A stretch of DNA of 64,000 nt, taken from positions 17,963,217 through 18,027,216 of the forward strand of contig OZ020246.1 in the NCBI GenBank assembly GCA_963971285.1. Reading direction: 5' to 3'. The DNA is from Astropecten irregularis. Taxonomy: Eukaryota; Echinodermata; Asteroidea; Paxillosida; Astropectinidae. Below are positions 1 through 34,819 of the stretch, in pieces (position 1 is the stretch's first letter; each line of letters begins with the position of its first letter). The notes under the pieces were generated by a model. The model was not told where the DNA came from and made no database searches. It saw only the letters and a list, made by a program, of their open reading frames with translations. The translations under genes and the position numbers were made by a program.

Positions 1-5621
<5,621 letters not shown>

Positions 5622-13400: not shown

Positions 13401-16400
13401 ATGGCAGGTGAAGGTGTGTCTTTCAGGTCATTTGTCTCAGAGACAGAAATAGATGAAAAGCGACGGAAAAGGCAGGAAGAATGGGACAAAGTGCGCACTG
13501 AAGATCAGCCGCTGGGTAACTATTTTTATTGAATACCTTTGAATAGGTTACAGTCCGTGTGTTTCCGACACCTCCAGTCCTCAGAAACGAGAGTAAGAGC
13601 AGGAATTTTTGTACTTCCAGGTACGATACATATTTAAAGGGATAAAAACGACTTTTTGTAAAGAGGTCTTACCTAAATATATGTTCGTGGTGTCCTCTTC
13701 AACACCTGGGGCCAATTTCATAAAACTGTTTTAAACTTAATTAAAGCAAAAGTTGCTTAGCACAAAAATGTCTCGCCCAATAAAACAAACCACCATTGAA
13801 AATTCCATTTGATATTCATGGTCAGCGAACAACAGCCAAAGGACAATCACAAGTGATACACAACACGTTGAAATTTGGTTGTTAACGGGTAAAGTTAACC
13901 CTGTTTTTATTAAGACAGAAATGTCATGCTTAGCAAATTGTTGTGCTTAACAGTTTTATGAAATAAGTCCCTGTCAATATTGCCATTAATATGAGCAAGG
14001 TTATATTTTAATTTGTGGAAAGAGTGCAGGGCTTTGATATTTGAGGGAAATAATGGGCTAAAACTAAAAACGGACTCGGAGCTGAGAGAGAGGAACTTTT
14101 CTTTCGTCAAACTCACTCCATTGATTATTGTCAGAAAGAAAAGGTTATTCATATTACATGCTACAGCTCAGACATCTATCTATATGATTGGCTCAGGTTG
14201 TTAGTATTTTTAATTATTAATTGAAAAGTGAACAAAGAAAAATTGACTGGAGTCTGGTTTGAACCAGCGATCTCCGGAATACCGTATTGGCACTTCACCA
14301 TCTGAACTAGAGCACTTGTACGGTATTCCTGAGATCGCTGGTTCGAATCCTTCTTCAGTCAATTTTTCTTTGTTCACTTTTCAATGACTTTAAATAAATT
14401 CATTTAGTTTCCTTTGTGGTTGTTATGTTGATGATTATTCTAAATTAATATTTGTTTGTTGTTCGTGTTTTTGCAGAATGTCCTGAAGAGGAAAATGACT
14501 CTCGCAGTCTGTATGAGAAACTCCAAGATCAGAAGGAAAAGAAGCAGTCAGACTTTGAAGAGCAGTTCAAATTCAGTAGGTTTCCCCCTCTAACCCTAAC
14601 CCTCTACGCATTCCAGTACTATACCACACACGACAGGAGCTGGTTACCACACATTTCCACTGTCTCCACACACATTCGTGTTTCACATATTTGTCCTATA
14701 CTCAAATCCGACGCGCGATTTATGTAATTGGCCCTGCGGTATATGAGGGGACGTACACCCACAGTATAAGTGCGGCGTAGCGTAAATTCTTTTGTTCTCA
14801 TAGAAAAGATGGGCTGGGACACCGCAGTAATGGCAGATGGTATATCGCGCCGTTGGATCAGTGTATAGACTAATCACACTGTTCTGTATGTTTGAACCAA
14901 AAAGGAATAGTTTAATTGTACATGTAATTCCTATATACTCTGGTGCTTGATTCCAAAGTGAACAAACACAGGGGCACTTGGATCATAAACCACATACATG
15001 TATCACCACACATACCACACTGGTGTATTATGGTATGCAGGATACCACACTTACCACAGGGAAAAACTATTTGTGGTAAACTGTGGTATGCTGGGTTGGA
15101 TTTCACAAAGCACTGAGATTAATCTTAAGATATTAGACGTCAGTATCACCATAGTGATTTGTATAGTGACATCATGCTTTGCTTAGCAATTAAGATTAAT
15201 TCACACTTGAGATCAATCTTAGTGCTTCATGAAATTGATCCCAGGTGAGTTAGGATGTTGTAGACAGAAGAGGGTGTGAAACACTTCATCCTGTCACCCT
15301 GGCACTGCTGGGGTAAATTAAGCCTCTCAACAGACTCTTGTAAAAAGCTTAACCTCTCCATTGAAAATTTCAAACTGCAGTCATTCCATGAATAAAGCAT
15401 TAGGAATTATTTTCAGACAAATTCTGTGTTGATTTGGCCCCTGCAGAGAACATGGTGAGAGGTATTGATGAAGATGAGAGCAAGTTCCTGGATGAGGTCG
15501 CTGATCGACAGATGGAGATAGATACCAGAAGGATGCGAGAGGAGAAAGAGATGCTAGAGGAAATGAAAGAATACACAATATCCTTTTATCCATGCGGGCA
15601 CGGAGTGTCCTGCCAAAATATGGCATTCTGCAGAACCCTGTCTGTGGACTTTGATCTATAATATCCCAAACTATGCAAAGCAGTATATCAGCTCTGTGCT
15701 TTTGCAGCCAGTGGTTGAGTGAAGAGTGCAGCACATGTGTAAACTTTCATCCAGTTTCAAACTCTTTCTGGTAGATCATAAAATAACTACAAGGGAAACT
15801 TACTAAATACGGTATTCAGGAGGTCGCCGGTTCGAATCCCGCTCCAGTCAATTTTTCTTTGTTCACTTTTCAATGACTTAAAACTCTCAGTCAGTTTCCC
15901 TTGTGGTTATTACACATATAAATTTAAAGTCGTTAAAATGTGAACAAATTGACTGGAGTGTGATTCAAACCAGCAATCTCCAGAATACCGTACCAACACT
16001 CTATTTTAACTGAGCTATCCAGCCCTATGTTCGTGGTGTCCCTAATATTCAATTATCTTTGTTTGTTTGGCAGTCAGTTCATTCTGGTTGGTTGGAGTTA
16101 CAAAGGTCTTGTATTCTAACATGATCTTTCTCAAAGGCTAGAAAGGGCCTGACCCATTTTGAGCCTTGCAGGATCTTTCTCAAAGGCTAAAAGGCTTCAT
16201 TAGCCTTTGAGGAAGATCATATTTCTTGTATTGGTTATCTTTCTGGTTAGAGGAGAATTAACACTATGCCTAAAACTGTTCCTGAATTTGGTGGCTTACT
16301 TGTATGGTCATGCTCACAAATACATGTTGCCTCCCAATTGTCTGTTACAGTTTGACTGCGTCAGTCTATAATTTTGATATAGGTTTTCCTTAACGTGACG

Positions 16401-18380
16401 TCATCACGATAGGGTAATCCCCGTTAATGAACCCAAAGACAAAATGACATCCAGACCAACACACACGGAGAAGACAGCAACAGCTCGGCCTGGCAGTATG
16501 ACCAGGAAAACACAAGCAGCCCTCCTTGCAGGAGTCGTCAAAAGGAAAAGGTTAACACCCTCCAAAATTAATCTCATTTAATCCTTTTTATCTCTCCCTT
16601 TTCATTTCTCAATCTTTTCTTTCGAACGCCTTTATCCTAGCACACCTCCCTACCACATTTAACCACACATTGTTTTTTGTGTGGTATCATGCCTACCACA
16701 ATACACTGCAGTGTGGTTTGTGTGGCAATGGGTGGTCTATGGTCCAGTTCCCCTGTGGTGACTGTGGTAATGTGTGGTATGCAGCTCTTGTCTTGTGTGG
16801 TAGGTGGAGAGTGTTAGGGTTAAGGAAGTTCTTTATCATTTGTAGGTAAGAAAACTGCTGATAACTTGATGATCCATGGGGTACCGTGACCTAGTGGTCT
16901 GGCGTGTTGAACTCGAGGTCTTGTGGTCAATCTACAGATTGTGGGTTCGAATCCAGCCATGGGCTAGTGGTGCTTGTGTCCTCTGGCAAGACGCTTTGTC
17001 ACATTTTGCTCCTCTTCACCCAGGTGTAAATGGGTACATGTGAGGGTAGAGATGGTTTGGTTAGCCCGTGTGTGCTTTGCAGGCAGCCAGTGGGCTGTAT
17101 ACTCCCCAGGGAGTTGAGATGGTTTCATGAATGTAAATGGGGCCCGATAACCAGGGATAATAATACATGTAAGCGCTTTGAGTAGTATGTAACTAGATAT
17201 AACGCTATGCAAGTATTTGTTTATTGTTATAATTATTAGCCCAGCCTTCAGTGAGACCCTGAACACAGAATACATCAATGCTTGGTTGCAGGGCCTGCTC
17301 TAACTCAGACCTTGAATTTAACTGAGGCCATTGCCTTCGTTGCCCTTGTTCTTGGCCTTCGTGCCCCCTTCAAATGTTTCCATAGACATTATGATTTTCC
17401 AATGGAAGTACCACTTGCAATGGAAAAGTGGCTTTGCCCTTTTCAGAACCAAATTCAAGGCCTGCTCTAACTTCATGTTTGTGACTAGCCATTCAATGAT
17501 TACTAGCCCAACCACTTATATACATGTACATTCAGATACCACAACACAGTGTCTAAGTTGCTTGATGTGGAGGACTAACAAGCCCAGAGTGCTCTTGCTT
17601 GGTGATTGCACACCAGGCTTGTGTCTGAATGGAGCACTGATGAAAATTTTGTCTTTGGTTAATACTTACCCAGTACTCACCCTGTAATCAGAATCTTTCT
17701 CACACATATCTTTTTAGGACAGCCTAGAGCTAACTGGTCAGAAAAACCAGGGTTCTTCTGAACCATATCTTCTCTTACTTTGTGCTAACCCACGCCTCTG
17801 ATTTTCTTCTCTTTGTCTTCTTGTTCTTTAACCTCCACCGATGAGCTGAGGCTCACAAATGTCCTTGTGGGCACTAGTCAACATAAGGAGACTGGAGGAC
17901 ATTGTTGCCAATGTGGTACCACATTATTACTACCTTTTGACAAGAGGTCATGCCTTTTCACAGGTTCAAGATGTTCTGTAGGTTAGACTACATCCAGTGT
18001 GATGCCCACCTTGTTACGTATTCTGTCTGTCCTTGATTCCCCTCAGAAGCGACTCGGACGACAGAAATGGAGAGAAGAAAACAAAGTCTGCGTCATCTCC
18101 ATCTTCCTCTTCCCAAAATGGTCCGGACTGTCCTCCGGACACCCCAAGTGAAGTCCAGTCCCAGGCTACTACAAGTACTCCTGCAGCTCTCAGCAGCACC
18201 GCCGAGCGACCACTGCTAAATGATGGTGATAAAGCCCAAGTGGTCAGCATCCTACCAGGACTCGGTTTCTATAGCAACAGCAGCGACTCGGATTCGTCAA
18301 GTAGTGACACGGATGTGGACTTGTTGAACTCTGTTGTCCATCGGCAATCGAAAAAGAAAAGTCACGCATCTTGTAATTGA
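13401..18380 (+). CDS. PSME3IP1: PSME3-interacting protein (FAM192A/NIP30/PIP30)
   Basis: Five exons in one frame: 13401-13515, 14477-14575, 15447-15577, 16408-16550 and 18047-18380 (TGA), about 273 residues (human 254). The N-terminal half has the family hallmark: [54 protein letters not shown] and FLDEV. Then come a basic segment ([16 protein letters not shown]) and a Ser/Asp-rich C terminus ([21 protein letters not shown]) equivalent to the human ILPGLGAYSGSSDSESSSD region. The vertebrate protein is nuclear and binds the proteasome activator PA28-gamma (PSME3) through its phosphorylated C-terminal part. Introns 1, 2 and 4 are GT-AG. Intron 3 fits only as an AT-AC minor-class intron (see separate entry). 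RSPRY1 is the upstream neighbour, as in human, but here the two genes share orientation. Confidence 0.93.
13640..13706. repeat. Dispersed repeat copy (pair with 35740-35825)
   Basis: The segment with CTTACCTAAATATA and TTCGTGGTGTCCTCTT recurs in reverse complement at 35740-35825. It lies in intron 1 of PSME3IP1, next to a fold-back element. Confidence 0.6.
13708..13971. repeat. Fold-back MITE, about 260 bp
   Basis: It begins GGGGCCAATTTCATAAAACTG and ends CAGTTTTATGAAATAAGTCCC. The outer arms pair and include GCTTAGCA motifs. It is longer than the 3515 copy but has the same type of ends. It lies in intron 1 of PSME3IP1. Confidence 0.65.
14221..14392. repeat. Fold-back pair of tRNA(Thr)-like repeats
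   Basis: Two partial copies of the tRNA-like element face each other. The left arm (GTGAACAAAGAAAAATTGAC, CCAGCGATCTCCGGAATACC) is the reverse complement of the right arm (GGTATTCCTGAGATCGCTGG, GTCAATTTTTCTTTGTTCAC). The arms cover about 75 bp around a short unpaired centre, so RNA from intron 1 of PSME3IP1 could form a long hairpin. Confidence 0.8.
14586..15096 (+). repeat. Element with telomere-like CCCTAACCCT end, interrupted copy
   Basis: The left end (CTAACCCTAACCCTCTACGC, ACCACACA motifs) at 14590-14690 and the right part (ATCATAAACCACA through GTGGTAAACTGTGGTATGC) at 14970-15096 match the two halves of the compact copy at 50082-50268. The roughly 280 bp in between is probably a later insertion. 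It lies in intron 2 of PSME3IP1. Confidence 0.6.
15091..15244. repeat. Fold-back MITE
   Basis: It begins CTGGGTTGGATTTCACAAAG and ends TTCATGAAATTGATCCCAGG. The arms pair through GAGATTAATCTTA / TTGAGATCAATCTTAG. It abuts the right end of the telomere-like element in intron 2 of PSME3IP1. Confidence 0.75.
15775..15925 (+). repeat. tRNA(Thr)-like repeat copy, 5' truncated
   Basis: It holds the 3' half of the tRNA-like core (GGTATTCAGGAGGTCGCCGG, TTCGAATCCCGCTCCAGTC) plus the tail TTTTTCTTTGTTCACTTTTC and CAGTTTCCCTTGTGGTTATT. It lies inside the U12-type intron of PSME3IP1. Confidence 0.8.
15926..16085 (-). repeat. tRNA(Thr)-like repeat copy, reverse orientation
   Basis: This is the reverse complement of the same element: GTGAACAAATTGACTGGAG, then the inverted B box (GATTCAAACCAGC), then AACTGAGCTATCCAGCCC, the inverted A-box arm. 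With the preceding copy it forms an inverted pair in the U12-type intron. Confidence 0.75.
16125..16222. repeat. Short inverted repeat, GATCTTTCTCAAAGGCTA type
   Basis: ATGATCTTTCTCAAAGGCTA near 16132 is repeated directly near 16180 and inverted at about 16200-16218 (TAGCCTTTGAGGAAGATCAT). A related GCAGGATCTTTCTCAAAGG occurs near 51048. It is a fold-back fragment of a dispersed repeat. Confidence 0.6.
16632..16822 (-). repeat. Element with telomere-like ends, reverse copy
   Basis: In reverse complement it reads TTAACCCTAACACTCTCCAC, then ACCACACA-rich sequence, then AATGTGTGGTTAAATGTGGT near the other end. This follows the same order as the 50082 copy. It lies in intron 4 of PSME3IP1. Confidence 0.7.
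16870..17240 (+). repeat. Second tRNA-related SINE family, near full length
   Basis: A tRNA-like head (GACCTAGTGGTCTGGCGTG, B box GTGGGTTCGAATCC) is followed by a body with CCTCTGGCAAGACGCTTTGT and CACCCAGGTGTAAATGGGTA. That body type recurs in SINEs of several marine invertebrates. It ends in an AT-rich tail. A 5'-truncated relative occurs at 22650-22765. It lies in intron 4 of PSME3IP1. Assignment to a named superfamily was not tested. Confidence 0.75.
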
Positions 18381-25400: not shown

Positions 25401-28400
25401 CTTGTCTTGTTTACAAGACAGACAAACCCCGATAATGTTTGCCTAATTATTCCTCCTAAATTTTGCTCACAATATCATTAACAGTAAAAAGAAATGAGAG
25501 AGAATTGAAGGAATGCAAAAATTTGCTTTAAAAAAGTGTTAAAAAAATATTCTGAGGGTTGAAAAAGCAAAAGAATGAAATCAAATTGACTTTATCAATT
25601 TATTTCATACAATTATATTTCATATTTCATACAAGGTGGTCAGGCATCTGGATTGTTATAAAGGGGTCAAGCAATGCAGGCCAAAGCTTTTAAGAAATAC
25701 ATAGCATTAGCTTTTAAGAAATCCATAGCTTTTAAGAAATCCCTGTATTGATGTTACAAATGAATAGTTTAGCGTAGATTGCTGCATTTAAGCACAAAAA
25801 TATAATTTGCATATCAAATTTTGCAAAATAAAACAGATAAATTGACGGATTCTATGACATCCGTCACTACAGACAAAAAAAGTGAGTTAATTCTGAGTGT
25901 TTTTAACTCCAACTTGTCATAGAGAACAAAGGAATTAGGGTCTTGTACTGGTTGTTGTGGCCTCAAATTTAATCCCTTGGCTCAAGTACAAGGCACTTAA
26001 CAACTGATTTTTACCTACTTAAATTACTTTTAAAAGCAGATCGAAAAAATTTAACATTCATCATGAAGCCCTGTATTCATTACTGAGTAATCACAAAAGT
26101 TGAAAGCTTGCCAGATTGAAGTCTGTCTCTTCTTGTTGGTTTTAAAGTTTTATTCTGTAAGTTACAGAAGAAAGTCTGATGTAAATCTTTTGGGTCACCC
26201 TTCACTCAAAGGCATTATACACAGAATTGTTAACGGTGACAGAACAGCTGCGGTCTGTTCATAATTTGATTTGTCATCCATGGAATGAAAACAAACCTGT
26301 GAATTTTTCAGCTCATGTAGAAAACAGTGGAAAACGCTCACGCTATTTTAACATTTATTCACCCCGAGATCAAAACTGTTTTCGTTCTTTGTTTAAATAC
26401 TAATTTCGGGATAAATACATTGTACACCATTTCAGCTTGAAATATTTTAACGGTATGTTTCTACCAGCACCATCTTCATATCCTGAAAGTTAAATACGTA
26501 AATCTGTGGAAATGTCTGTTTGGGTATGTTACCAATCCTGTACTGTACCTTAATCAGCAACTTACCCACCTTACAAAATCACAAATCTCTTACACAATCC
26601 ACCTGGATAAGTTTTAACTACTAGACCTGTGTGTTAAATAAGTATGTGTCTGCCATATTGGGATGTTACACCGTGTTGGATTTTCACGGATTCAACTTCA
26701 TAGCCCAAATGCTCAAAGGGACTGACAAAAAAGACAAAATATGGGATGTTTCAATATTCCGCACCCTCCCTCTTGAGAAAGAAATTGTACTCTGTACTCA
26801 CTGATCTTGATGAACAATTCTTTGATGTTGACTGCCGTTTTTGCGCTGGTCTCAATGAACACCGAGCCTATATCCTGAGCATAGTCCATAGCTGTCCTGG
26901 TTTCAACTTCCCGCAGGTCTACCATGTCGTTCTTATTCCCTGCTATCGCTATTACGATATTATCTGGCCCGTGTTGTTGTAACTCTCGTATCCAGTCTCT
27001 GACTTTGGTGTATGAGATCTAGAAATGATATGCAAAGAAAGAAGAGAAGAATGGGTAATAAAAACAGGCAAAATTGCTTGGAAGCAATATCATCAGATCA
27101 GTTGTCCTTCATGTCTGGTCATGGAGGTCCAAGTTCCTCAATGGTCTGGTTGACCGTTGGGGCACCACAGATACTCTGTGGACAACCTTTCTCCAACCTT
27201 CTCTGTTTTCTGCAATCCGAAGAGCCTCACTCAGACTGAGCCCTGTCCATTCTGTGGTGTTATTCTCCCATCTCGCTCTTGTTCTGTCTGCCTCAGACTG
27301 AGCCCTGTCCATTCTGTGATGTTATTCTCCCATCTTTTGTTCTGTCTGCCTCAGACCGAGCCCTGTCCATTCTTTGATGTTATTCTCACTATCTCTTGTT
27401 CTGCCTGCCTCAGACTGAGCCCTGTCCATTCTGTGATGTTATTCTCCCATCTCTTGTTCTGTCTGCCTCAGACTGAGCCCAGTCCATTCTGTGATGTTAT
27501 TCTCCTATCTTTTGTGTCTTTCTGCCTCAGACTGAGCCCTGTCCATTCTGTGATGTTATTCTCCCATCTCTTGTTCTGTCTGCCTCAGACTGAGCCCTGT
27601 CCATTCTTTGATGTTATTCTCACTATCTCTTGTTCTGCCTGCCTCAGACCGAGCCCTGTCCATTCTGTGATATTATTCTCCTATCTCTTATTCTGTCTGC
27701 CTCAGACTGAGCCCTGTCCATTCTGTGATGTTATTCTCCTATCTCGTTCTGTCTGCCTCAGACTGAGCCCTGTCCATTATGTGAGGTTATTCTCCCATCT
27801 CTTGTTCTGTCTGCCTCAGACTGAGCCCTGTCCATTATGTGATGTTATTCTCCCATCTCTTGTTCTGCCTGCCTCAGACCGAGCCCTGTCCATTCTGTGA
27901 TGTTATTCTCCCATCTCTTGTTCTGTCTGCCTCAGACTGAGCCCTGTCCATTCTGTGATGTTATTCTCCCATCTCTTGTTCTGTCTGCCTCAGACTGAGC
28001 CCTGTCCATTCTGTGATGTTATTCTCCCATCTCTTGTTCTGTCTGCCTCAGACTGAGCCCTGTCCATTCTGTGATGTTATTCTCCCATCTCTTGTTCTGC
28101 CTGCCTCAGATCAAGCCCTGTCCATTCTGTGATGTTATTCTCCCATCTCTTGTTCTGTCTGCCTCAGACTGAGCCCTGTCCATTCTGTGATGTTATTCTC
28201 CTATCTCTTGTTCTGTCTGCCTCAGACCGAGCCCTGTCCATTCTGTGATGTTATTCTCCCATCTCTTGTTCTGTCTGCCTCAGATTGAGCCCTGTCCATT
28301 CTGTGATGTTATTCTCCTATCTCTTGTGTCTTTCTGCCTCAGATCAAGCCCTGTCCATTCTGTGATGTTATACTCCCATCTCTTGTTCTGTCTGCCTCAG

Positions 28401-30202
28401 ACTGAGCCCTGTCCATTCTGTGATATATACATGTACTCCCATCTCTTGTTCTGTCTGCGTCAGACTGAGCCCTGTCCATTCTGTCATGCTATTCTCCCAT
28501 CTCTTGTTCTGTCTTGAATTTGTATCCTGAATTGTTTATTTGTTAGTGTTTATTATGTCTATTGTCTGTCATACTTACTTGACTTGTGATGTCATAAACT
28601 ACAATTGCCGCTGCTGCTCCTCTGTAATACATTGGCGCAAGACCTCGGTACTGTAAAAAAAAAAAATTTAATGAAAATACACAGTATAATGTAATTATAA
28701 CACAAGTTTTTAAATGGCGCCCTCTTTTGATAATGCATGCACTACAACTCTGGCTCAGTATGTGGCACGCAATATGTTGAAGTACAAATTTAAAAAAAAA
28801 TAACAAATCCATTAAAATCAAAAGAACTTTCTACTTGCTCAATTCAACTAAAAGAATGCAATTTACAATATTCTAAAATGAGAGTGAGCTAAGTCTAATT
28901 GCCACATGCAATCCTAAAGATGGCACCAATATACCACCCTTATTTGGTACAAAACACACGACCATATATCATTTGATCAACATTTTTGTTTTCTCACCTT
29001 TTCCTGGCCGGCAGTGTCCCATATTTGGAATTTGAATGCTTTTTCTCCTGATGTTATTGTTTTTGACATAAATGAAGCACTACACAAAAAAAGAAAAGAA
29101 AATACAAGTATACAAATTTAGTTATCAATGGCATAACAAGTCTACACCCTAATTATGACGTTTGACTAGTGGCCTTCCTAAACATAGTGTCCATCTGGCA
29201 TTCTCTGTACTCAAGCCAACTTGGCTACTAACGTACCATCCAACCCACCATACAGCTTCAGAGTCTTGCCGGCACCTACAAGCCTGCATCCATAGGCTCT
29301 AGGGGGCTGTATATTGTCACTATGTGGATAAAGATATGACCTTTGACCTACCCTATTGTTGGGGGAATGGAATCTTGGTAAGAGTCGCAAACAAACCGCT
29401 GTACAATGCTGGATTTTCCAACTCCAGAGTCCTGAAAAAAATACAACAAAAAATAGATTTAATTCACAAAAAGGGAGAATCCCATTTGAAATGTACGTAA
29501 CCTTTATAGCTCTTTTTATCCCCAGTCAAATCTGATGAAGGTTACTGGAAAGTTAATGACGAGTTCACAGGCACTGAACAGCCAAATAACTTGCTGTACT
29601 AAAGTGAGTAAGAGTTTGACTTTTTGAGTGTTTTTCACAGTGAAAACAGATTCCCAAAATTCGAAAACAAAACAAAAACTAGACAATTTACATAAAATAA
29701 CAGTTTCACTCAGAGAAGAATAAAGGAAATTCGGAGTGAGAGGAAATTGTTTTGAAATGGCGGAGGACAATTGTTAGCCTTTAATGTTACCCAGCTTCTA
29801 CACAAAGTTACCGGGTAGGCCTACTCACCTAAATTATGACTTCATCTGTCGGGTCTGGGTACGAGTAAACCAGAGAGGAGTAATGGCATAATGCACACTA
29901 ATGCCCATTCTTACCCATTAAGCACCTAGTAATTGTATCATTTACTTCAGCACTAGTTAGTTATAATTACATGGTTATTACTACTACTGTTCAGGCAACT
30001 TGATGTCTGGCAAGACTGACTAACTTAGTCTGACTCTGAGGCTGAGACTAGCATAGCTGCATAGAGCAACTTTGGATGTGTTGTCATTGGTTTTATTAAA
30101 AACTTATTATTAATTTTATACGTCTGGAGATAACTGGCTAGGCCTACATTGTCATTGTGTACTTACTCCCAGCAAGCAGAGTTTGACTTCTCGCATAGCC
30201 AT
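22475..30202 (-). CDS. Rab22/Rab31-like small GTPase
   Basis: Six minus-strand exons: 30202-30167, 29431-29352, 29079-28998, 28650-28579, 27018-26802 and 22578-22475. All junctions are GT-AG and in frame, giving 196 residues (human Rab22A 194). GTPase motifs are intact: P loop GDSGVGKSS, switch I PPTIGASFM, WDTAGQE, NKND and ETSAK. LAPMYYRGAAAAIVVYDIT and WIRELQQHGPDNIVIAIAGN place it in the Rab5/22 group, nearest Rab22A/Rab31. The protein ends GKKNGCC, a dicysteine geranylgeranylation signal. Family members act on early endosome and trans-Golgi traffic. The last intron (about 4.2 kb) contains an opposite-strand sulfotransferase-like gene, and intron 4 contains a minisatellite. I cannot separate Rab22 from Rab31, because that split is probably vertebrate-specific. 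Confidence 0.93.
22650..22765 (+). repeat. Second SINE family, truncated copy
   Basis: GTGAGGGTTGAGATGGCTTTG, GTATACTCCCCGTGGAGTTG and TTCATGAATGC parallel the body of the 16870-17240 SINE. The tRNA-like head is absent. It lies in the last Rab intron. Confidence 0.55.
23962..24901 (+). CDS. P-loop sulfotransferase-like protein nested in a Rab intron; frame break or 64-nt intron
   Basis: The frame opens at ATG 23962 (MSDPVKFIIWACPRTCSSAL) and after one frame change ends at TGA 24901. The N terminus has a sulfotransferase-type P loop (CPRTCSSALLK), and FLLRHPCKVFPSW resembles the 3'-phosphate-binding strand and helix. The second half (IFPPGKAYKEAYDLYQYVKE, PIIIDADDLVEDP) matches a family often labelled sulfotransferase-like or, misleadingly, branched-chain aminotransferase-like in marine invertebrates. 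Near 24391-24454 the frame shifts by one. It is restored either by a 64-nt GT-AG intron (GTAAAAATT to TTTGACCAG) or by a one-base indel in the TTTTT run near 24437-24441. It is otherwise intronless, so it may be a retrocopy. The substrate is unknown. It lies opposite-strand inside the last Rab intron. Confidence 0.75.
24994..24999 (+). terminator. Probable polyadenylation signal of the nested sulfotransferase-like gene
   Basis: AATAAA lies 93 bp after the stop codon, a normal distance for a short 3' UTR. Confidence 0.5.
26290..26540. repeat. Diverged copy of the AAAGGTAGTATCATACTT element
   Basis: GGATAAATACATTGTACACC, ATTTCAGCTTGAAATATTTTA and GGTATGTTTCTACCAGCACC align in order with the copies at 51108 and 58478. 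The end nearest 26290 is poorly preserved. Confidence 0.55.
27230..28514. repeat. 58-bp minisatellite, about 22 units
   Basis: The unit reads CTGAGCCCTGTCCATTCTGT, GATGTTATTCTCCCATCTCT, TGTTCTGTCTGCCTCAGA in order. Copies are mostly over 90% alike and some differ in length (TTGTGTCTTTCTG variants near 27510 and 28325). It fills most of intron 4 of the Rab gene. Because 58 is not a multiple of 3, the unit reads in all three frames and gives long but meaningless open frames. Confidence 0.95.
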
Positions 30203-32117: not shown

Positions 32118-34819
32118 TCATGTGGATTGGGGTTTATCTCGGCTAGCTCCTTGACCAAGGAGTTGTTTCTCTTCTTCCACTAGCTGTTCCCACCTCTCCT
32201 TCTCCTTGGCCAGGCGCTTTTCCCTCCGAGCAAAGTAGGACGGGTAGAGGGCTTTCTCTGAAGGATGCCAGTAGTTCAGTACCTAGAGTTGAAGGTTCAA
32301 AAAAGAAACTCTCCAGTTGAATAGATTTCATTTCATATCAATTTTTTGGCAATAGTCACTGTAAAACTTGATTCAATTACTGTGCATTTTAAAATCAAGC
32401 TTCACACCTGGATTTTGCAGTATTTTTGATGGCTCTATATTAAATGCCATGCATTGCTGCAGAATTTTAACAGAGTTTTTTTTTTTTTTTGTGTGAAAAA
32501 ATCACAAGGCCCAAAACAGGCCACTCGAGGTGATGGCTAAAACGAGGAGAAAAGGGAACAAAGAAGAAATCATGGGGTAGAAAGACAACTATTGATGTTG
32601 CACTTAAATTGAGACAAATTGTAAGTGAAAGGGAGCAGGATGCAGGGAGTGAATTCCACAGCAAGGCGGTACGCGGGAAGAAACTGGATGAGTACAATGC
32701 TGCAGTTAGTTTTCTACCATGATATATGTTACATACAGTGGAACGCCACTATAACAAACACACTGGGATGCACAGAAATTGTTCGTTATTGTGGTCGTTC
32801 GTTATGGTGAACAGCATGCCTATGCCGTACATAGAAATTGGGAGCCAAGGATGATGTTCAGTATAGCCAAATGTTAATTTTAGCAGCATTCCATTGTTTA
32901 TACCGGCACTATCAAAAACTTTTAAGATGGCAAATAATTATGCTCTCTGAAATAAACAAAGCTATAAGTCCTCTACTTTATAGTGGCTTAAAGTCAAGTG
33001 AACTTACCCATTCAGGGGATGGGATATTTCTCTCATAACGTGTACCTCCTGGAGAATCAATAACTGTAATGACAAAATCAACCAATCCATCAATCAATCA
33101 ATCAAAATCAATAAATCAACTAATAAATCAATCAGTCAGTGGACCAATGATCAACTCCCAAACCCAATCACATAAGCTATCATGATATCTGAATCTGAAT
33201 CTGTTAAAGCTGACTGAACTTGGGCGCTAACTTTTCTTTTTATGACCGATTTAGCTGATTTTGAAGGACACAGTATGCACCATACATCAAAGGATCAAGA
33301 CAATGGACCTTTCCCATGAAATATACTACCAGGGGTAATTATACGCGCATGTGCAAATGCACCACTGGTTGGCAAGTATTGTTGCAGCTACATGCCGGCT
33401 GCATTGTATGTGGTACGTACGTGCGTAATGTAGCTGCAACTTCCGTGCCAGCCAGTGGTACATTTGTGCATGTGCGTATATAATTCGCATATTTCATGGG
33501 AAAGGTCCATTCTAATAGGGTGAAGTGTTTGCTAGCAACTTACATATATATGGTTGGGGGTGTTGTTTCTTCCAAAACTCCTCCTCTCCATCCTTGAGAA
33601 GACGAGCTGCCTTCTTCATGTCCGTCTCATCTTTGTGTTCATCAAAGCGAGCTCTTAGGAGAGTAACCTCATAGCGGAATGTGGGCCTGTCAGTTACAAT
33701 AAAAATTTAGAAAATTATATCAATGCATAATTCTTTCAACTGCATAATATAAAGAGAAAAATATGCATGCTAAAAAATAGCATGATGATATGATGATATG
33801 AGAAATGGAAGTTTTGTGCAAATTTTGTATGTTTGTGTAACTTTGAAGTTCATCAAGTAGGCCTAGTGCCCCAGACCACGTAGAACATTGAAATTCAGCT
33901 TGAGATTTGAATCTTGATGAAATAAAAAATGTATTTTTCCCCTACTTCTTTTCAGGGCTGTGATCTAAATGACGGTCATTCATTAAAAATTATGATGTTC
34001 AAATAACCACAAGGGAAACTGACTGAATTTTGAGGCATTGAAAAGTGAACAAAGAAAACATTTCTGGAGCAGAATATGAACCAGCGATCTCCAGTATGGT
34101 ATTCCTGGAGATTGCTGGTTTGAATCCCGCTCCAGTCAATTATTCTTTGTTCACTTTTCAATTACTTTAAATTATGATGAATTGAAATAATGAACAAATC
34201 AGTAAGTATACATTTGTGATAAATGTCATTCTTCTGATTAGCCAATTCTCGATACGTCATGCCGACCTTCTTTCTTACTGAGACATCTAAACGATAATAA
34301 CAATTACATGATTCATGAAACTAAGCAGACTACCGTTATAGCATGAGAGGACTCGCCTACCTCCTTAGACCCTAATGTCGATCGGTTATTTCAACAGGGG
34401 GCGCCCTTTGAAAAGGCGCATCCACTATACTCGATGTGTACGCGATGCCCCCTTTTATCACCCCATCACATGATGCATTGCTTTATTGTGGGATATCGCA
34501 ATCAGCAATGCCTAGTCTAAAACTAGTAAATGTTATTCTGGAGGTACGTCCTGCCAGAGGCAGGAAAATATCATTTGCAGGAAGAATGCCGGTGCCGGCA
34601 AAATATACCCTGCCGAAATAAAAACATATTCTTACTTCTTGTCCGAAAACTGGGATTTATTTACTTGCAAACCGGCATAGGCCTACCGTGCACAGTCAAA
34701 TGGTCAAATACACAAAATGGTACCGGCATTTACCTGTGAGTAATCCAGGATTCCAAGTGCCTCGCAGACTTTTTATACAATCTGAGAACTCGCTGTGCAT
34801 GCGTTAGCGAGCTAGCCAT
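32118..34819 (-). CDS. NDUFB9: NADH dehydrogenase [ubiquinone] 1 beta subcomplex subunit 9 (complex I B22, LYR family)
   Basis: Four minus-strand exons, 34819-34734, 33686-33544, 33063-33008 and 32282-32118 (TGA), join in frame to 149 residues (human 179). The start [20 protein letters not shown] carries the LYR-type motif (LRLYK). Then follow [49 protein letters not shown] and [19 protein letters not shown], all close to NDUFB9. It is an accessory subunit of mitochondrial complex I on the inner membrane and has no transmembrane helix. The C terminus is shorter than in mammals: after the coiled segment ([18 protein letters not shown]) it stops without the human WWYIVTRP tail. Introns contain two fold-back repeats. 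Confidence 0.95.
33303..33510. repeat. Fold-back MITE, about 208 bp
   Basis: It begins ATGGACCTTTCCCATGAAAT and ends ATTTCATGGGAAAGGTCCAT, which is perfectly complementary. The inner arms (GCGCATGTGCAAATG, CCACTGGTTGGCA, TTGCAGCTACAT) also pair. The centre contains GTACGTACGTGCGTA. It lies in intron 2 of NDUFB9. Confidence 0.9.
33998..34172. repeat. Fold-back pair of tRNA(Thr)-like repeats
   Basis: The left arm (TTGAAAAGTGAACAAAGAAA, ACCAGCGATCTCCAG) mirrors the right arm (CTGGAGATTGCTGGTTTGAA, TTCTTTGTTCACTTTTCAA), with only a short centre. AACCACAAGGGAAACTGACTG at the left is the inverted tail of the element. It lies in intron 1 of NDUFB9. Confidence 0.8.

Follow-up and report, generated by a model that had tools for sequence, protein, structure and literature searches.

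The third intron of a PSME3IP1/FAM192A gene in Astropecten irregularis begins with AT and ends with AC, and introns 1, 2 and 4 of the same gene are GT-AG introns. This raises the question of which spliceosome removes it. In an initial annotation of the 64,000-nucleotide stretch of DNA analysed here (the window), positions 15578-16407 had been assigned to the U12-dependent AT-AC class. The sequence analysis makes this assignment very probable: the stretch would be a U12-dependent AT-AC intron in an animal orthologue of PSME3IP1/FAM192A.

Identity and structure of the gene

The proposed gene identity was borne out by two comparisons of the predicted protein. The best match among solved structures was PDB 7w59_X, PSME3-interacting protein (E 8.1e-44, query residues 8-251), and the Pfam family PF10187 (FAM192A_Fyv6_N) matched residues 11-112 with an E-value of 1.4e-32 and 112.4 bits against a cut-off of 20.2. 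We take chain 7w59_X to be the human protein. A human pre-C* structure is cited in PMC11651659, and the FVSE motif, described as conserved in that article, was found in the predicted protein. Sequence similarity supports the reading of the gene as PSME3IP1/FAM192A, the animal homologue of the second-step factor Fyv6.

Joining the five coding exons (Table 1) results in 822 nt that are open up to the stop codon and encode 273 amino acids plus the stop. The alignment with 7w59_X crosses the junction of exons 3 and 4 without a large missing segment. A search of the organism's own genome (475.7 Mb in 168 contigs) returned five exon-sized matches, all at the locus itself, and the gene is accordingly single copy. 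A retrocopy displaying the exon 3/4 junction was sought among these five matches and was not present.

The adjoining gene (window positions 1-5620) encodes a SPRY domain (E 1.9e-20) and a RING domain (E 9.3e-12) and is likely RSPRY1. Presumably, RSPRY1 also adjoins PSME3IP1 in human; if this is true, the linkage has been conserved since very long ago.

Table 1. Features of the PSME3IP1/FAM192A gene and its third intron (window positions)
Feature	Position	Strand	Remarks
PSME3IP1/FAM192A gene	13401-18380	+	five coding exons, 273 aa
Coding exon 1	13401-13515	+	joined open frame
Coding exon 2	14477-14575	+	joined open frame
Coding exon 3	15447-15577	+	joined open frame
Intron 3, 830 nt, AT-AC ends, phase 0	15578-16407	+	predicted from signals and frame
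U12-type 5' splice site ATATCCTTTT	15578-15587	+	matches prototype ATATCCTT; predicted 8-bp duplexes with the genome's U11 and U6atac
In-frame TAA upon intron 3 retention	15659-15661	+	142-aa product
Inverted pair of tRNA-related, SINE-like repeats	15808-15992	.	arms 15808-15854 and 15946-15992
U12-type branch site TTCCTTAAC	16386-16394	+	matches prototype TCCTTAAC
AC acceptor	16406-16407	+	13 nt past the branch motif; intron ends CAC (16405-16407)
Coding exon 4	16408-16550	+	joined open frame
Coding exon 5	18047-18380	+	joined open frame

Splice signals of intron 3

The founding class of minor introns is characterized by the near-invariant donor ATATCCTT, the branch site TCCTTAAC and an AC end (PMC2831892, in part). 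Intron 3 carries both motifs, at 15578-15585 and 16387-16394, respectively, and the exact agreement with the minor-spliceosome consensus claimed in the initial annotation is thereby reproduced. The claim of an appropriate branch-to-acceptor distance also holds. Counted to the last intron base, it amounts to 13 nt when measured from the final base of the branch motif, and to 15 or 14 nt for the two adenosines that could act as branch point; the optimum given for minor introns in the available part of PMC3584512 is 11-13 nt. The same source describes the polypyrimidine tract of such introns as not distinct. The acceptor tract of intron 3 contains 56% pyrimidines, compared to 69-81% in the other introns of the gene, and no distinct polypyrimidine tract is found. 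As had also been stated, removal of 15578-16407 keeps the frame open, and exons 3 and 4 are joined at codon phase 0, after residue 115. This phase counts against the U12-type reading, since U12-type introns avoid phase 0 (PMC7367187, in part).

The weight of these motifs depends on how often they occur by chance. The exact signal pair was defined as ATATCCTT and TTCCTTAAC within 5 kb, with an AC 8-20 nt past the branch adenosine. It occurs once on the forward strand of the 64-kb window and not on the reverse strand, with 0.015 occurrences expected per 64-kb strand in 200 first-order Markov simulations. Chance alone frequently produces a loosely defined pair, with 16.8 occurrences per simulated strand; therefore, the weight rests on the exactness of the match and on its correct position. 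Inside the frame-keeping stretches, approximately 5e-7 exact pairs would be expected, which is a rough figure from an independent-base model.

Rival splice sites and rival explanations

All GT, GC and AT donors in 15549-15661 were listed together with the matching acceptors in 16399-16440, and the combinations were required to keep the frame open. This resulted in 21 solutions, comprising 2 GT-AG, 5 GC-AG and 14 AT-AC combinations. The donor ATATCCTT is used by two of the 14 AT-AC solutions, and 15578-16407 is the sole one ending behind the branch motif. The AG at 16412 combined with the AT donor was rejected, as it leads to a frameshift and a 119-aa product. A hidden exon within intron 3 was rejected as well: none of the 0, 30 and 17 internal AG..GT stretches obtained under three threshold settings, which included settings admitting the gene's own donors, resulted in a frame-open two-intron solution.

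The initial annotation had regarded a GT-AG solution as implausible, and the scores agree with this. Both GT-AG solutions, from 15607 and 15640 to 16412, preserve the frame, but their donors score -9.7 and -3.78 compared to 0.76, -0.96 and -0.90 for the other three introns of the gene, and -3.78 is the best score among the four GTs in 15549-15661. Thus, no frame-keeping combination of a GT donor and an AG acceptor of usual strength is present in the listed stretches. An intron of the major spliceosome, with its acceptor at 16412 and a GT or GC donor among the first 80 nt, could also make use of one of the five GC-AG solutions. With a score of 1.86, the GC donor at 15598 ranks above the other donors of the gene, although the donor matrix leaves out the GC dinucleotide itself. 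The tract in front of the AG at 16412 contains 50% pyrimidines, below the range of the gene's other acceptors, and the exact set of U12 signals at the same place would have to be the chance match for which the expectation was given above. Overall, such a U2-type intron is very unlikely.

Another explanation accepts the AT-AC ends and assigns their excision to the major spliceosome, as for some introns of sodium-channel genes. The terminal dinucleotides alone do not fix the class of an intron (PMC2831892, in part). However, the sodium-channel AT-AC introns of the U2 type described in the same part of that source all have a G at position +5, whereas intron 3 has a C at this position and a full U12 branch site. 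This explanation is therefore extremely improbable.

A shorter mRNA could also normally end with the retained sequence of intron 3. The frame continues for 27 codons beyond 15577 before the TAA is reached, and the Fyv6-like domain is already complete before the retained part. The resulting 142-aa protein would, however, lack the conserved remainder, which is encoded by exons 4 and 5 and aligns with 7w59_X to residue 251. A protein with this remainder can only be made from transcripts that have lost intron 3, so at least a part of them must be spliced here, and retention as the normal state can be given hardly any credence.

We infer splicing of the RNA at 15578/16407 by the minor spliceosome from the signals, the open frame, the homology on both sides and the presence of U11, U4atac and U6atac genes. 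By what is established for minor splicing, base-pairing of U11 at the 5' splice site and of U12 at the branch site would come first, and U6atac would then replace U11 at the donor. Position 15578 would be attacked by an adenosine of the branch site (16392 or 16393), and the joining of the exons after the AC at 16407 would lead to the full 273-aa protein.

Minor spliceosome RNAs and a second AT-AC intron

The organism's own genome contains one match above the gathering score each for U6atac (139.2 bits), U11 (100.7 bits) and U4atac (87.4 bits). For the donor of intron 3, 8-bp duplexes were predicted both with the 5' end of U11 (-7.4 kcal/mol) and with a segment of U6atac (-8.2 kcal/mol). Among 5000 random sites of the window, 147 performed equally well or better with U11 and 310 with U6atac, and with U11 the donor stretch of intron 4, a GT-AG intron, comes to -7.1 kcal/mol, compared to -7.4 kcal/mol at the donor of intron 3. 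The predicted pairing is good but not exceptional, and it should be regarded as agreement with the U12-type reading rather than as proof.

The U6atac gene is preceded by a TATATATA stretch and ends with a T run, as expected for a Pol III gene. It lies on the reverse strand of its locus (contig C23, locus positions 1501-1627), between forward-strand exons near 58-178 and 2767-2907. These flanking exons belong to the gene of the branch-site protein SF3B6/p14 (PDB 2f9d_A, E 6.8e-50).

A syntaxin-6-type gene (PF09177, contig C24) was used as a positive control. Fly Syx6 and human STX6 carry an AT-AC U12 intron (PMC2831892, in part). An AT-AC intron was found in this gene too, with the donor ATATCCTTT and, as read by eye, the acceptor CAC, behind which the exon goes on in frame with ETI-G-IVEANPRKF.

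Repeats within intron 3

The inverted pair of tRNA-like repeats reported for intron 3 was found again, with arms that are 85% complementary, and the pair is predicted to fold strongly (-88.5 kcal/mol, z -8.2). A true tRNA within intron 3 was rejected, as neither the Rfam gathering score nor ARAGORN calls one there. Related repeat pieces are located in the window near 2.8-3.1, 14.2-14.4, 34.0-34.2, 37.5, 47.6 and 62.0-62.9 kb, and three tRNA-like places outside intron 3 exceed the Rfam score (window positions 3037, 47605 and 62808). The most plausible reading of the repeats is that they are copies of a putative tRNA-derived, SINE-like element, a name that we infer. They would be insertions in the interior of the intron, away from the three splice signals, and no role needs to be assumed for them.

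The foldback form recurs in the window, where the repeat also forms close inverted pairs at 14220-14425 and 34001-34173. Another repetitive feature is a tandem array at 27230-28514 with 22 copies of a 58-nt unit and 92% matches, located between exons of a putative Rab-type gene that was identified by eye on the reverse strand.

Intron position and a possible switch

Intron 3 interrupts the coding sequence shortly after the end of the Fyv6-like domain (residues 11-112). Its retention would add 27 residues before the stop, and the whole domain would be kept in the product. If minor splicing were slow, this product would be formed without the C-terminal half, which would contain the part of FAM192A/PIP30 that binds PA28gamma. 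Binding of FAM192A/PIP30 to this proteasome activator is described in the available part of PMC6646590.

A minor intron at this position could act as a switch in the gene of a splicing factor, so that the activity of the minor spliceosome would balance two forms of a second-step factor. This idea is very improbable, and any regulatory role for intron 3 is speculation. Fyv6 is a second-step factor, and its loss in yeast has little effect at branch-to-acceptor distances of 9-15 nt, whereas exon ligation is lowered at distances of at least 21 nt (PMC11651659, in part). As the corresponding distance in intron 3 is 14-15 nt, this intron could be spliced without the protein whose gene it interrupts. 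Introns 1, 2 and 4 would not share this possible independence of Fyv6. The words 'minor' and 'U12' are absent from the main text of PMC11651659, which therefore does not address whether FAM192A acts on minor introns.

Relation to known minor introns

Intron 3 resembles the U12-type AT-AC introns that fly and human carry in syntaxin 6, PHB2 and KCMF1 (PMC2831892, in part), both in the ATATCCTT donor and in the short distance from the TCCTTAAC branch site to an AC acceptor. In these genes, too, there is one such intron among GT-AG introns. Intron 3 differs from them in its host gene, its phase 0 and its inverted SINE-like pair. Another minor intron in a splicing-related gene is the autoregulated one of Srsf10 (PMC7244321, in part). 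Autoregulation is known for Srsf10, however, and FAM192A is a homologue of a second-step factor rather than an SR protein. The AT-AC subtype accounts for about 22-26% of human minor introns (available parts of PMC6717393 and PMC10639083); it is uncommon but standard, and intron 3 is ordinary for its kind.

Going by the names listed in PMC2831892, none of the 19 U12 introns of the fruit fly belongs to PSME3IP1/FAM192A. No open-licence main text matched by gene name reports PSME3IP1/FAM192A as a minor-intron gene; lists of such genes are mostly found in supplements and databases.

Intron 3 alone leaves the general picture of minor splicing unchanged. As a clean case of an AT-AC minor intron in the gene of a splicing-factor homologue, it is useful for following how minor introns are gained, lost or switched between types in animals. 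Should intron 3 prove to be of the U12 type throughout animals, it would become possible to test directly whether minor splicing and a second-step factor are linked.
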